DNA of 42,304 nucleotides. Origin: Candidatus Magasanikiibacteriota bacterium (GTDB lineage Bacteria > Patescibacteriota > Patescibacteriia > Magasanikbacterales > UBA922). The stretch lies in contig JABJHO010000014.1 of assembly GCA_018661775.1 (NCBI GenBank), positions 1-42,304 on the forward strand. The letters are read 5' to 3'. Under the pieces are notes generated by a model that was not told the DNA's origin, did not search any database, and saw only the letters and a program-made list of their open reading frames with translations. Numbering within the stretch: position 1 is the stretch's first letter; every line of letters begins with the position of its first letter. Positions 25,306-36,566 of the stretch are shown here, piece by piece. A program made the position numbers and the translations under genes.

Positions 25306-25842
25306 ATGCCAAAAAGACTAAAATCAATTTCTCGCGAAATACTCCATACAAACCCTTGGTGGACGTATAAATATGACAAATACACTTTGCCAGGGGGTGG
25401 GGTTGGGGAGTATTATTATGCAGAAACAGCGGGTTTTTGCATGATTATACCCGTATTACCTGATGGTCGTCTTGTGCTGACACTACAATATAGATATCTC
25501 TCAGATAGGCAAGGTATTGAGTTTCCTGCCGGAGGAATTGGTAATGATAAGAATGTCTTAGCAGCAGCTAAGCGAGAATTGCAAGAAGAGACAGGGTGTG
25601 TTGGTGAACAGTGGCGTAAAGTGGGGGTGTTTGAGGGAAGCAAGAGTATGATTAAGAATAATTTGGCCCATGTTTTTTTGGTCCAAGTGTCATCTCAGTG
25701 TGCACAGCAGTTAGATGAGACTGAAGAAATTGATGTGCTGTACCGCACGCCTACGGAGGTTGATGCAATGATATCGGATAATACTATTTGGGATGGTTCT
25801 AGTATTGCGGCCTGGTGTCTTGCTCGGCCACACGTAGTATAA
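25306..25842 (+). CDS. Nudix hydrolase, ADP-ribose pyrophosphatase-like
   Basis: This 178-residue protein resembles ADP-sugar and ADP-ribose diphosphatases (NudF type), which cleave the pyrophosphate of nucleotide sugars. The Nudix box runs from Gly76: GGIGNDKNVLAAAKRELQEETG. The catalytic REL-QEE-TG is intact (Arg90, Glu91, Glu94, Glu95), but the first Glu of the motif is replaced by Lys82. The upstream LTLQYRYLSDRQGIEFPAG fits the ADP-ribose subgroup. It follows the HIT gene closely, and both would deal with nucleotide by-products. The next gene begins 11 nt after its stop. Confidence 0.88.
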   Translation: MPKRLKSISREILHTNPWWTYKYDKYTLPGGGVGEYYYAETAGFCMIIPVLPDGRLVLTLQYRYLSDRQGIEFPAGGIGNDKNVLAAAKRELQEETGCVGEQWRKVGVFEGSKSMIKNNLAHVFLVQVSSQCAQQLDETEEIDVLYRTPTEVDAMISDNTIWDGSSIAAWCLARPHVV

Positions 25843-25853
25843 TATATATAGTT

Positions 25854-26249
25854 ATGGCTATACAAAACATGAAAAATCCGGAAAGTGATCATATTTTTTG
25901 TTTTAAAGAAGATTCTTCAAAAGAGGGAAGAACATTGTCGCATGTGCAGGTAGGTGGTGTGTTTATGTCTCGCCTTGTTATTGATCCTGGGGTTGTTACA
26001 GGAAATTATTTTTATACCAATACCCATGTGCTAATGAGTATAGAATCTGGCACAGTTGTTGCGCGGTTTGAGCATGTGCACACAAAAGAAAAGAGAGAGT
26101 TGCAGCTCAAACCAGGGGAAGAATTGGTAGAGATACCAAAAAAAGTTGCCAGCGCAACGAAAAATATTGGTAACGAAAAGGCGGTTATTGTTTTTTTTAG
26201 TGACAAGCCGTTGCGAACATCAGAAGCGTTTCATTATAAAGTATTTTAA
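25854..26249 (+). CDS. Cupin-fold protein, paralogue 1 (metal ligands lost)
   Basis: This 131-residue protein aligns over its length with the next gene. Shared landmarks are VGGVFMSRLVIDPG versus VGGVHVSRIEFEPG, a middle strand ending in FEHV versus FEDV, a PGEELVEIPKKVA versus AGGCAIQIPTHVA block, and FFSDKPL versus LFSNKKL. The conserved metal-binding His positions of the cupin are GNYFYTNTH here, so most ligands are gone. TATAAT at 25838-25843 lies 10 nt before the ATG, but without a good -35 box. The frame stays open upstream into the Nudix gene; I chose the ATG at 25854. The role is unknown: it may be a sugar-binding or structural partner of paralogue 2. Confidence 0.75.
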   Translation: MAIQNMKNPESDHIFCFKEDSSKEGRTLSHVQVGGVFMSRLVIDPGVVTGNYFYTNTHVLMSIESGTVVARFEHVHTKEKRELQLKPGEELVEIPKKVASATKNIGNEKAVIVFFSDKPLRTSEAFHYKVF

Positions 26250-26258
26250 ATACGCGGT

Positions 26259-26666
26259 ATGAGTAATCAAAATTTTATTACAGTACACCCTTTTGCCCTA
26301 GACCATTCAACAGCAGGGCGAGTACTTTTTGCCTCAGAAGTTGGTGGCGTCCATGTATCTAGAATTGAGTTTGAACCTGGGTTTGAATTGGGACACCACT
26401 ACCATAAAGAGACACTTGTTACGTGCTATACTGGTATCGGGTCATTGTGTGTTGTGTTTGAAGATGTTGTTACAAAGGCACAACAAGAGATACGTATGGA
26501 CGCCGGTGGTTGCGCCATACAAATCCCCACTCATGTTGCGTTTACTATGAAGAGTATAGGCTCTTCTACTGCGTCATTAGTGTTATTTAGCAATAAAAAA
26601 CTCAATACCGACGATAATTATATATATGAGGTTACACCTCCTTCTGATCAAACCAGTACACCATAA
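26259..26666 (+). CDS. Cupin-fold protein, paralogue 2 (metal site kept)
   Basis: This 135-residue single-domain cupin starts 9 nt after paralogue 1. Its metal site is plausible: GHHYHKET supplies three His and one Glu in the order expected for the first cupin motif. A second-motif His may be in IPTHVAF. Small cupins include sugar isomerases and epimerases, but it is much shorter than RmlC (about 180 residues) and lacks its signature, so I do not call it that. Its last 35 nt overlap the end of the convergent membrane-protein gene on the other strand. Confidence 0.75.
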   Translation: MSNQNFITVHPFALDHSTAGRVLFASEVGGVHVSRIEFEPGFELGHHYHKETLVTCYTGIGSLCVVFEDVVTKAQQEIRMDAGGCAIQIPTHVAFTMKSIGSSTASLVLFSNKKLNTDDNYIYEVTPPSDQTSTP

Positions 26667-28799: not shown

Positions 28800-29825
28800 A
28801 TGGCAAAAATACTCATAACAGGTGCAGCAGGATTTATTGGGTCAAATTTTGTGCGGTATTGGCTTGAACACCACACAGAAGATGAGGTTATTGGGTATGA
28901 CGCACTCACTTATGCAGGAAACCTAGAAAATTTGGATAGATTCCAAGATAATCCACGGTTTCGCTTTATAAAAGGGGATATTGGTGACATGGATACCGCC
29001 TCTGCTGCGCTCGCAGGAGTGGATGTTGTTGTTAACTTTGCTGCCGAATCTCATAATGATAGGGGAGTCCTTGATCCAGGTATTTTTTTACGGACTAATG
29101 TTTTAGGTACACAAATATTTTTAGAAGCAGCAAGGCGCTGTGGTGTGAAGCGTTTTCACCATATTTCTACATGCGAAGTGTTTGGTGATCTTGCGTTAGA
29201 CGAGGACCGTGCCTTTGTCGAAACTGACCCATATCAGCCAAAAACACCATATAATGCATCAAAAGCTGGGGCAAACCATGTGGTTATGTCGTATTTTCAT
29301 ACGTATGCTATGCCGGTTACAATAAGTCACTGTGCAAACAATTATGGCCCATACCAGTTCCCAGAAAAACTTATTCCACTCTTTGTGACCAATGCACTTG
29401 AGGATAAACCATTACCACTCTACAAAACAAGTCAAAATAAGCGTGAATGGACGCATGTTGATGATCACGCGCGAGCAATTGAAGCTATTTTAGAGAAGGG
29501 TAAGGTTGGAGAAGCATATAATATTGGGACAGGTGTAGAAAAAACAGTAGAGGAGATTACAGATATTATTTTACAGACACTAGAAAAACCAGAATCTCTT
29601 AAAACATATGTACCCGATAGGCTTGGGCATGATCGAAGATATCTTCTTGACGATACAAAACTCAGAAAAGAGACAGGGTGGAAGCCAGAAATTAGTTTTG
29701 ATGAAGGTATTAAAGAGACTATTTTATGGTACAAAGATACCCCAGAATGGTGGAAAAGGGTAAAAAGTGGAGAATATGAGGAGTATTACAATACCTATTA
29801 TAATAACACATTAGGAAAAAATTAA
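28800..29825 (+). CDS. rmlB: dTDP-glucose 4,6-dehydratase (RmlB)
   Basis: This 341-residue extended short-chain dehydrogenase converts dTDP-glucose to the 4-keto-6-deoxy sugar, using bound NAD. The nucleotide-binding loop is GAAGFIGS (8-15). The catalytic Tyr and Lys are in YNASK (Tyr151, Lys155). The NYGPYQFPEKLIPLFVTNAL block and the DRLGHDRRYLLD segment are diagnostic of RmlB-type enzymes. One variation: the usual STDEVYG reads STCEVFG (124-126 is T-C-E), so the Asp that acts in dehydration is Cys125. The start ATG 28800 gives MAKILITGAAG; an in-frame ATG at 28779 would add seven residues. It begins the nucleotide-sugar cluster and precedes the NRS/ER-like gene by 13 nt. Confidence 0.87.
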   Translation: MAKILITGAAGFIGSNFVRYWLEHHTEDEVIGYDALTYAGNLENLDRFQDNPRFRFIKGDIGDMDTASAALAGVDVVVNFAAESHNDRGVLDPGIFLRTNVLGTQIFLEAARRCGVKRFHHISTCEVFGDLALDEDRAFVETDPYQPKTPYNASKAGANHVVMSYFHTYAMPVTISHCANNYGPYQFPEKLIPLFVTNALEDKPLPLYKTSQNKREWTHVDDHARAIEAILEKGKVGEAYNIGTGVEKTVEEITDIILQTLEKPESLKTYVPDRLGHDRRYLLDDTKLRKETGWKPEISFDEGIKETILWYKDTPEWWKRVKSGEYEEYYNTYYNNTLGKN

Positions 29826-29838
29826 TTGTATTATATTT

Positions 29839-30693
29839 ATGAAGATATTACTTTTGGGCGCAAAGGGTTTTGTGGGGAAGCGCTGTGCTAATGCTTGGGA
29901 TGGGGTAATTGCCTATGAAGATCGCATTACATCGTCAGAGCAGGTTGAAGATCTTATATCACAACACAATCCTGATGTGGTGCTCAATGCTGCAGGAGTG
30001 AGAGGAAAACCAAACGTTGATTGGTGTGAAGATAATCAGATAGAAACAATGGTTGGGAATACTGTGCTTCCTATTTTAGTTGCCAAGGCATGTGCCAAAA
30101 CACAGACTTACCTGCTACATATCGGCTCTGGTTGTATTTTCTATGGCGACTCTTCTCATGAAGATAAAACATGGAGAGAAGAAGATTTTGCCAACCCATC
30201 GGTAATCTACTCTCGATCAAAGTACGCAGCTGATTTGGTACTGTCTACGTTACCTCAAGTAGGAATTGCACGCATACGCATGCCAATTGATTGGGTGCCG
30301 TCTCCAAATAATATGATAGATAAATTAACCTCATTCTCAAAAGTAATTGATGTTGAAAACAGTGTTACTGTTGTAGAGGATATGCTTGCTGTATTCTATG
30401 AACTACTTGAAAAAAAGGCAACAGGAGTGTTTCATGTAACTAATCCTGGATTGTTAAAACATCGGGACATTATTCAGCTGTATCAAAAATTTGTTAACCC
30501 GGATCATACAAATGAATGGATTACCGATGAAGATTTAGTGAAAAAAGGGTTATCTTTAAAAGGGCGATCAAACAATGTTCTATCTTCAAAAAATCTAGAA
30601 GCATATGGTATTGAAATGAGAGATGTGCATATTGCGATGGAAGATACCATGAAAAAGTATTCCGCAGCGCTTACCAGCGGTAGAATCTCTTAA
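29839..30693 (+). CDS. NRS/ER-like (UER1-type) 4-keto-6-deoxysugar epimerase-reductase
   Basis: This 284-residue SDR resembles RmlD, but its order of motifs fits the bifunctional 3,5-epimerase/4-reductase of plants (NRS/ER, UER1) and of some giant viruses better. It has GAKGFVGK (8-15), AAGVRGKPNVDWCE, IGSGCIFYGD with Cys99, and YSRSK with Tyr124 and Lys128. Then come RMPI, the SFSKVIDVENSVTVVED block with Lys168, and GVFHVTNPGLLKHRDII. In the plant enzyme a Cys in the GCIF motif and a Lys in the corresponding later block are proposed for epimerisation (from memory); both are conserved here. If correct, the 4-keto-6-deoxy product of RmlB would become dTDP-rhamnose without a separate RmlC. It starts 13 nt after rmlB. 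The next gene has its own promoter. Confidence 0.75.
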   Translation: MKILLLGAKGFVGKRCANAWDGVIAYEDRITSSEQVEDLISQHNPDVVLNAAGVRGKPNVDWCEDNQIETMVGNTVLPILVAKACAKTQTYLLHIGSGCIFYGDSSHEDKTWREEDFANPSVIYSRSKYAADLVLSTLPQVGIARIRMPIDWVPSPNNMIDKLTSFSKVIDVENSVTVVEDMLAVFYELLEKKATGVFHVTNPGLLKHRDIIQLYQKFVNPDHTNEWITDEDLVKKGLSLKGRSNNVLSSKNLEAYGIEMRDVHIAMEDTMKKYSAALTSGRIS

Positions 30694-35451: not shown

Positions 35452-35478
35452 ATGAATACACAATCAGTTTGTATATGA
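35452..35478 (+). other. Possible eight-residue leader peptide overlapping the rmlA start
   Basis: ATG at 35452 opens a frame encoding MNTQSVCI, whose TGA (35476-35478) overlaps the ATG of rmlA (35475-35477) as ATGA. A purine-rich GGTAGAGAG precedes it. It may couple translation of rmlA, but a short open frame can occur by chance. Confidence 0.3.
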
Positions 35479-36566
35479 AAGTAAAAAAAGCTATTTTAAC
35501 AGGAGGTGGACGTGCAACACGGTTGCATCCCATCACTGCAACAATAAATAAACACTTACTCCCTTTGGCAAACAAGCCAATGATTTTTCATGCTATAGAA
35601 AAGGCGGTTGAGGCAGGTATTACAGATATTTTTATCAATACAAACCCTGGTGAAACTGAATTACAGAAATATATTGGCGATGGTGGGCATTGGGGGGTTA
35701 CTATTACATATTTTGAGCAAACAGGCGGTCCTCAGGGTATAGCCCATGTGGTGAACGTGGCAAAAGATTTTATAGGAGATGATCCGTTTATGTTTTATCT
35801 TTCAGATAATATATTACTCGGAAGCATAAAAGACATGGTTGCAGAGTTTAATCAAGGTGAACACGATTGCATGTTGGCACTGTCTGAGGTAAAGGATCCA
35901 CAACGTTTTGGTGTCCCTATTTTTGATGAGCACAAGAGACTTGTTGATGTACACGAGAAACCTGCAGAACCGCAAAATAATTTTGCTGTTACCGGCATAT
36001 ATCTTTATGGGCCACGTGTGTTTTTTGATACATTTAAACATATTAAAAAAAGTGATCGTGGTGAGTATGAAATATCAAGTATTCATTCTCATTTTTTACA
36101 ACATAACAAAAAGGTTGGATACAAGGAAATAACAGGATGGTGGAAGGACACAGGAAAAACGAATGACCTGCTTATCGCAAATACATTGCTTTTGGAAAAC
36201 ATGTCGGAAGACGAATTCTCTGTAAATGCTGAAGTGGAAGAGGGGGTAGAAATTTCAGGAAATGTCCACATAGGTTCTGGGTCTCGTATCGGAAAAAACA
36301 CCACTATTAAGGGTCCTGTAATTATTGGAGAAAACTGTATGCTAGATGATTGTACCATTGGACCAAACGTAACACTTGGTGCGGGGAGTGATATTGCATA
36401 TGCCACGATTGAAAACAGTGTATTATTACATAATATTACCATTCGTGTGCCTAAAAAAATTACCCAAAGTATTATAGGAAAAAATGCACAAATTATTCCA
36501 AGAGTAGACACGCACTGCGATGGTCATGCGATGATTATAGGAGATAAAACAATTATAGAAATGTAA
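35475..36566 (+). CDS. rmlA: Glucose-1-phosphate thymidylyltransferase, long form with beta-helix
   Basis: The enzyme transfers dTMP to glucose-1-phosphate to make dTDP-glucose, the substrate of RmlB. The 363-residue protein has an N-terminal nucleotidyltransferase domain: GGGRATRLHPITATINKHLLPLANKPM (the phosphate loop carries Arg-Ala-Thr), YLSDNILLG with the catalytic Asp, FGVPIFDEHKRLVDVHEKPAEP, and GWWKDTGKTNDLLIAN. From about residue 245 a left-handed parallel beta-helix of hexapeptides follows (VHIGSGSRIGKNTTIKGPVIIGENC). This long form is known from the RmlA2/StrD-type branch. The start is ATG 35475; a TTG at 35469 would add two residues. It ends the sugar cluster. Confidence 0.86.
   Translation: MKVKKAILTGGGRATRLHPITATINKHLLPLANKPMIFHAIEKAVEAGITDIFINTNPGETELQKYIGDGGHWGVTITYFEQTGGPQGIAHVVNVAKDFIGDDPFMFYLSDNILLGSIKDMVAEFNQGEHDCMLALSEVKDPQRFGVPIFDEHKRLVDVHEKPAEPQNNFAVTGIYLYGPRVFFDTFKHIKKSDRGEYEISSIHSHFLQHNKKVGYKEITGWWKDTGKTNDLLIANTLLLENMSEDEFSVNAEVEEGVEISGNVHIGSGSRIGKNTTIKGPVIIGENCMLDDCTIGPNVTLGAGSDIAYATIENSVLLHNITIRVPKKITQSIIGKNAQIIPRVDTHCDGHAMIIGDKTIIEM

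Follow-up and report, generated by a model that had tools for sequence, protein, structure and literature searches.

The gene at positions 29,839 to 30,693 of the window (the whole 42,304-nucleotide stretch analyzed here) very probably encodes a bacterial NRS/ER, which together with RmlA and RmlB would form a three-protein route to dTDP-L-rhamnose, replacing both the cupin epimerase and RmlD. This reading rests on sequence, residues, phylogeny, gene context, fusions, and module exchange, from which we infer catalysis, the order of steps, and the dTDP carrier; the comparative evidence for the function is strong and convergent. In the proposed mechanism, the enzyme would take up the RmlB product dTDP-4-keto-6-deoxy-D-glucose, and C3 and C5 would be inverted by Cys99 and Lys162 acting as an acid/base pair. 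The same site, through Tyr124/Lys128, would then use NAD(P)H to reduce C4, and the resulting dTDP-L-rhamnose would pass to adjacent glycosyltransferases. Because rmlA and rmlB lie in the same cluster as the NRS/ER gene, the enzyme probably acts on dTDP sugars and not on UDP sugars.

Bacterial rhamnose synthesis is taught as the RmlA-B-C-D pathway, and NRS/ER is presented as an enzyme of plants, fungi, and viruses. The literature covers NRS/ERs of plants, fungi, algae, and giant viruses, enzymes that prefer UDP sugars (PMC6556577, PMC9741107). A 2011 survey listed only four bacterial homologues, all from Verrucomicrobia, and called the origin of the gene unknown (PMC3220709). One Parcubacterium is reported to carry a normal rmlABCD set (PMC5220378). 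A bacterial RmlA-RmlB-NRS/ER route did not turn up in our search of the open-licence literature, and a paper on rfbC deletion in Synechocystis does not mention an NRS/ER-type enzyme.

The gene is a genuine open reading frame with an ATG start (Table 1). Its product carries the SDR cofactor motif GxxGxxG as GAKGFVG (residues 7 to 13), along with AGVRGKPNVDWCE, GCIF with Cys99, YSRSK (Tyr124/Lys128), SFSKVIDVENSVT, and FHVTNPGLLKHRDI, all the motifs whose order the first-pass annotation had judged to be closer to plant NRS/ER than to RmlD. That judgment held when the protein was compared with solved structures using phmmer: the best match was Arabidopsis NRS/ER (4QQR; E = 8.7e-41), followed by the mimivirus UDP-L-rhamnose synthase (7JID; E = 4.3e-30), whereas the best RmlD in the same ranking reached only 1.7e-8 and other RmlDs were weaker. 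A predicted AlphaFold model (pLDDT 80, pTM 0.82, weak exactly at residues 99 to 112) likewise returned 7JID and 4QQR at the top of a Foldseek search, and VIA-align gave Z scores of 24.5 for 4QQR, 23.5 for 7JID, and 20.7 for the best RmlD. Named relatives belong to Magasanikbacteria, Uhrbacteria, and other Parcubacteria-type genomes; the phage, plasmid, and viral collections searched yielded RmlD-like relatives only, or none.

Table 1. Coordinates in the window of the predicted rhamnose pathway genes, key codons of the NRS/ER-type gene, and upstream cupins
Feature	Position	Strand	Evidence or remark
cupA, CapF-C-like cupin; metal-site histidines not conserved; judged outside the pathway	25815..26249	+	weak CapF C-terminal-domain resemblance
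cupB, second cupin paralogue; judged not to be the epimerase of the route	26259..26666	+	
RmlB, dTDP-glucose 4,6-dehydratase	28800..29825	+	TIGR01181 428 bits, cut-off 365; STCEVFG replaces STDEVYG
NRS/ER-type bifunctional 3,5-epimerase/4-reductase (predicted), 284 aa	29839..30693	+	phmmer to 4qqr/7jid, tree, residues, structure comparison
Cys99 codon (GCIF)	30133..30135	+	aligns with Arabidopsis Cys115; every intact homologue (62/62) has C; RmlD has Tyr
YSRSK (Tyr124-Lys128), SDR reductase YxxxK motif	30208..30222	+	invariant across NRS/ER and RmlD
Lys162 codon (IDK)	30322..30324	+	aligns with Arabidopsis Lys183; every intact homologue (62/62) has K; RmlD has mostly Thr
RmlA (long form), glucose-1-phosphate thymidylyltransferase	35475..36566	+	TIGR01208 334 bits, cut-off 320

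Phylogeny separates the protein from RmlD. In a tree of 62 sequences, whose bacterial sampling is Patescibacteria alone and to which the plant and mimivirus enzymes were added, a split with 100/100 support divided all 18 RmlDs from the NRS/ER types, all of which fell together with the plant enzyme and the mimivirus enzyme. The window protein thus groups with plant and viral NRS/ERs, outside every sampled RmlD. A divergent but ordinary RmlD, with a convergent resemblance to NRS/ER and an RmlC gene that was missed, is scarcely conceivable as an explanation. Pfam and NCBIfam do name the protein as a member of the RmlD superfamily (RmlD_sub_bind/rmlD), and the assembly of its genome is fragmented; however, its score against the NCBIfam rmlD equivalog (TIGR01214), 72.7 bits, falls far under the cut-off of 224, the 100/100 split runs against it, and most relatives lack RmlC, including one with a single-contig genome.

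The rest of the pathway in this genome (981,017 bases, a draft in 59 contigs with an estimated completeness of 100%) is consistent with an NRS/ER-based route. RmlA and RmlB, noted in the same cluster by the first-pass annotation, both pass curated cut-offs, and RmlC, which had not been seen in the cluster, had no match to PF00908 in the whole genome, although 11 of 14 control genomes were positive. Neither RmlD (TIGR01214 at 1e-25) nor an FdtA cupin (PF05523) was found in the genome, and the remaining RmlD-domain matches were RmlB itself, a PseB, and three GalE/dehydratase-like SDRs. With no rmlC/rmlD pair elsewhere in the genome and with the position of the protein in the tree, the original suggestion of a plant/giant-virus-type NRS/ER in place of RmlC and RmlD is supported.

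Alignment to the Arabidopsis enzyme identifies the residues that would make such a replacement possible. In 4QQR, Cys115 and Lys183 form what we take to be the catalytic acid/base pair for epimerization. Plant Cys115 aligns with Cys99, as first proposed, and plant Lys183 (ITK) aligns with Lys162 (IDK, within NMIDKL). The second half of the original proposal, Lys168, is ruled out: it aligns with plant Lys189, at a variable position where K, R, H, T, or N occurs and the viral enzyme has Arg. All 62 intact bacterial homologues share Cys99, Lys162, Arg147, Asn174, Asn202, Arg243, Tyr124, and Lys128 without exception; of these residues, Cys99, Lys162, Arg147, Asn174, and Arg243 are kept in the plant and viral enzymes as well. 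SGCIF in the window protein replaces the RmlD active-site segment STDYVF; RmlDs have Tyr at position 99 in 17 of 18 cases and mostly Thr at position 162.

Natural losses of Cys99 point the same way. Four homologues lack it, and all four of their genomes have RmlC, adjacent to the homologue in three. In these three (G225, G342, and G440), the Cys99 site is occupied by Met, RmlC is the neighboring gene in each, and two also carry Arg for Lys162. The fourth (G389) has Tyr at the Cys99 site and Arg for Lys162, with an RmlC-RmlD pair on another contig. The Cys-less homologues occupy two separate positions in the tree, with the RmlC-adjacent clade forming the deepest branch on the NRS/ER side. The presence of RmlC in the genomes of Cys-less homologues, set beside RmlC hits in just 4 of the 37 close NRS/ER genomes of the order, supports Cys99 as the residue that renders RmlC dispensable.

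An alternative hypothesis is that the protein acts as a 4-reductase only and that the 3,5-epimerase is one of the two cupins whose genes precede rmlB within the cluster. The cupins have weak CapF-C/FdtA matches, and similar cupins lie upstream of RmlB in several relatives. Strong matches to the family occur in 18 genomes of the order; 11 of these have NRS/ER, and the other 7 lack it and have the RmlD module. Of the 37 NRS/ER genomes, 26 are without the family, among them the single-contig G066. With cupin histidines that are not conserved and an NRS/ER Cys/Lys pair that is invariant, distribution and residues speak against either cupin as the epimerase, and we consider this division of labor very unlikely. 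Tandem CapF-C-related cupins upstream of rmlB accompany both types of rhamnose module, and their histidines are eroded in many copies.

A survey of 86 genomes of the order (NRS/ER counted at ≥56% identity, RmlD at >150 bits, and FdtA-family cupins at >about 75 bits) revealed two exchangeable modules. NRS/ER was found in 37 genomes, RmlD in 45, an FdtA-family cupin in 43, and RmlC in 10; RmlD and FdtA occurred together in 40, and the operons inspected read RmlB, FdtA-like cupin, RmlD. Both NRS/ER and RmlD were present in 4 genomes, NRS/ER only in 33, RmlD only in 41, and neither in 8 (p = 6e-12), and NRS/ER and FdtA were close to mutually exclusive (p = 5e-12); these values are optimistic because genomes were treated as independent. 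In contrast, RmlC showed no association with NRS/ER (4/37 genomes with and 6/49 without; Fisher p = 1), so its absence was rejected as sole proof of the NRS/ER route; the RmlC-family hits in 4 of the NRS/ER genomes weigh against that route. Sister genomes that use RmlD are likewise without PF00908 and have the FdtA-family cupin in its place, so the mere lack of RmlC carries no weight by itself. Lack of RmlC characterizes the order, and the informative fact is the exchange of the two modules. The RmlB tree tracks module type with 3 changes, compared to a mean of 12.6 after shuffling (0/500 as low), and NRS/ER-linked RmlBs are split among several separate subgroups. The earlier argument that three enzymes would be economical for a small genome is weak, since relatives of equal size use the longer module.

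An FdtA-family (PF05523) cupin lies between RmlB and RmlD, without a PF00908 RmlC, in about 40 genomes of the order (e.g., L054:2362-2796, L055:2353-2784, L066:2372-2788, L071:2353-2814 [minus strand]). These cupins are possibly a second, unrecognized replacement of RmlC, or a different 6-deoxysugar may be made in such operons.

The exchange can be seen at a single site in G053, the only other sampled genome of the genus. Over the part of the window that runs from 24.8 kb (the HIT protein) to 42.3 kb, G053 is collinear, with flanking proteins 39 to 82% identical, and at the site of RmlB, NRS/ER, and HAD it encodes RmlB (41% identical), an FdtA-like cupin, and RmlD; rmlA had no match in the collinear block. 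A module swap at one syntenic site suggests that the NRS/ER and FdtA-RmlD modules play equivalent roles for the same downstream glycosyltransferases. Wherever flanks in the order reach far enough, RmlB almost always adjoins NRS/ER, and the two are fused in frame in G066 (617 aa, single-contig genome) and G007 (695 aa). In-frame NRS/ER-RmlA fusions of 540 to 555 aa occur in G169, G251, G156, and G389; at loci L106, L107, L108, and L110, such fusions (540-555 aa) directly follow RmlB.

Whether the same bifunctional chemistry could act on another carrier or yield another product bears on the RmlB of the window. Plant and viral relatives prefer UDP (PMC6556577), which would give UDP-rhamnose, and an RmlB with an Asp-to-Cys change could make an unusual ketosugar that leads to another 6-deoxyhexose. 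The window RmlB belongs to a small clade (also L027/L095, L039/L083, and L103) in which STCEVFG and ESHND replace STDEVYG and ESHVD, with Cys substituting for the usual catalytic Asp and NRS/ER adjacent or fused in every carrier. Because of this Cys, the product of the window RmlB is less certain than that at other loci. However, RmlA and RmlB score above dTDP-pathway equivalog cut-offs, RmlA is fused to NRS/ER in relatives, and RmlB at most NRS/ER loci has the normal STDEV motif, making a different carrier or product unlikely.

Among known systems, the dTDP-L-rhamnose enzyme proposed here most closely resembles plant NRS/ER (Arabidopsis UER1, 4QQR), its top match in sequence and structure, with which it shares a single SDR domain, the Cys115/Lys183 pair, and the motifs RMPI, NSxT, TNPG...H, and RSNN. 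It differs in being bacterial, in lying beside rmlA/rmlB, and in probably using dTDP sugars, and identity in the structure alignment is about 28%. The mimivirus L780 UDP-rhamnose synthase (7JID) shares the fold and the epimerization Cys/Lys but is viral, acts on UDP sugars according to the literature, and is more diverged. RmlD, the dTDP-4-dehydrorhamnose reductase (1VL0, 3SC6, 1KBZ), shares the SDR fold, YxxxK, and the position in the pathway, but lacks equivalents of Cys99/Lys162, needs a separate epimerase, and belongs to another clade. GDP-L-fucose synthase (GMER, 1E6U) is another SDR that combines 3,5-epimerase and 4-reductase activities in one site, and it has a catalytic Cys in a comparable position; it differs in acting in the GDP-mannose pathway and in its lower similarity. 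Plant and nematode RHM, a dehydratase fused to the epimerase-reductase, has the same pathway activities, whereas the window has two separate genes; the RmlB-NRS/ER order of RHM is also found in fusions of the bacterial relatives L039/L083 and L098.

In the tree, with its Patescibacteria-only bacterial sampling, the plant and virus enzymes are nested among families f49 and f140 (98/94) and not outside the bacterial set. We speculate that NRS/ER could be a bacterial invention ancestral to plant, fungal, and giant-virus UDP-rhamnose enzymes, with the G225/G342/G440 clade preserving an intermediate between an RmlD-like reductase and the bifunctional enzyme, and with bacterial RmlB-NRS/ER fusions as parallels or ancestors of plant RHM; taken jointly, this scenario is tentative and somewhat doubtful. 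Distant NRS/ERs of families f82 and f49 (L111-L120 and L122-L126; 36 to 42% identity) keep the Cys/Lys residues, with no RmlB or RmlA recognized within the flanks read, and those of f49 are neighbors of the plant and virus enzymes in the tree. In a divergent subgroup (L097, L099, G355 [L138], and L098), RQL (RQP in G355) replaces RMP and RVD/RID replaces RSN, while Cys and Lys are kept; it perhaps uses a different substrate.

No NCBIfam model caught the window protein above its cut-off, and annotators of such genomes will therefore see a seemingly incomplete rhamnose pathway. Fusions, module swap, and natural residue losses make the origin and the catalytic residues of NRS/ER testable, and RmlA, RmlB, and NRS/ER could offer a compact enzyme set for dTDP-rhamnose production. 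Within one order of Patescibacteria, NRS/ER is a standard module, and it is found across the phylum; the best reading is that the three-protein route to dTDP-L-rhamnose is widespread in Patescibacteria.
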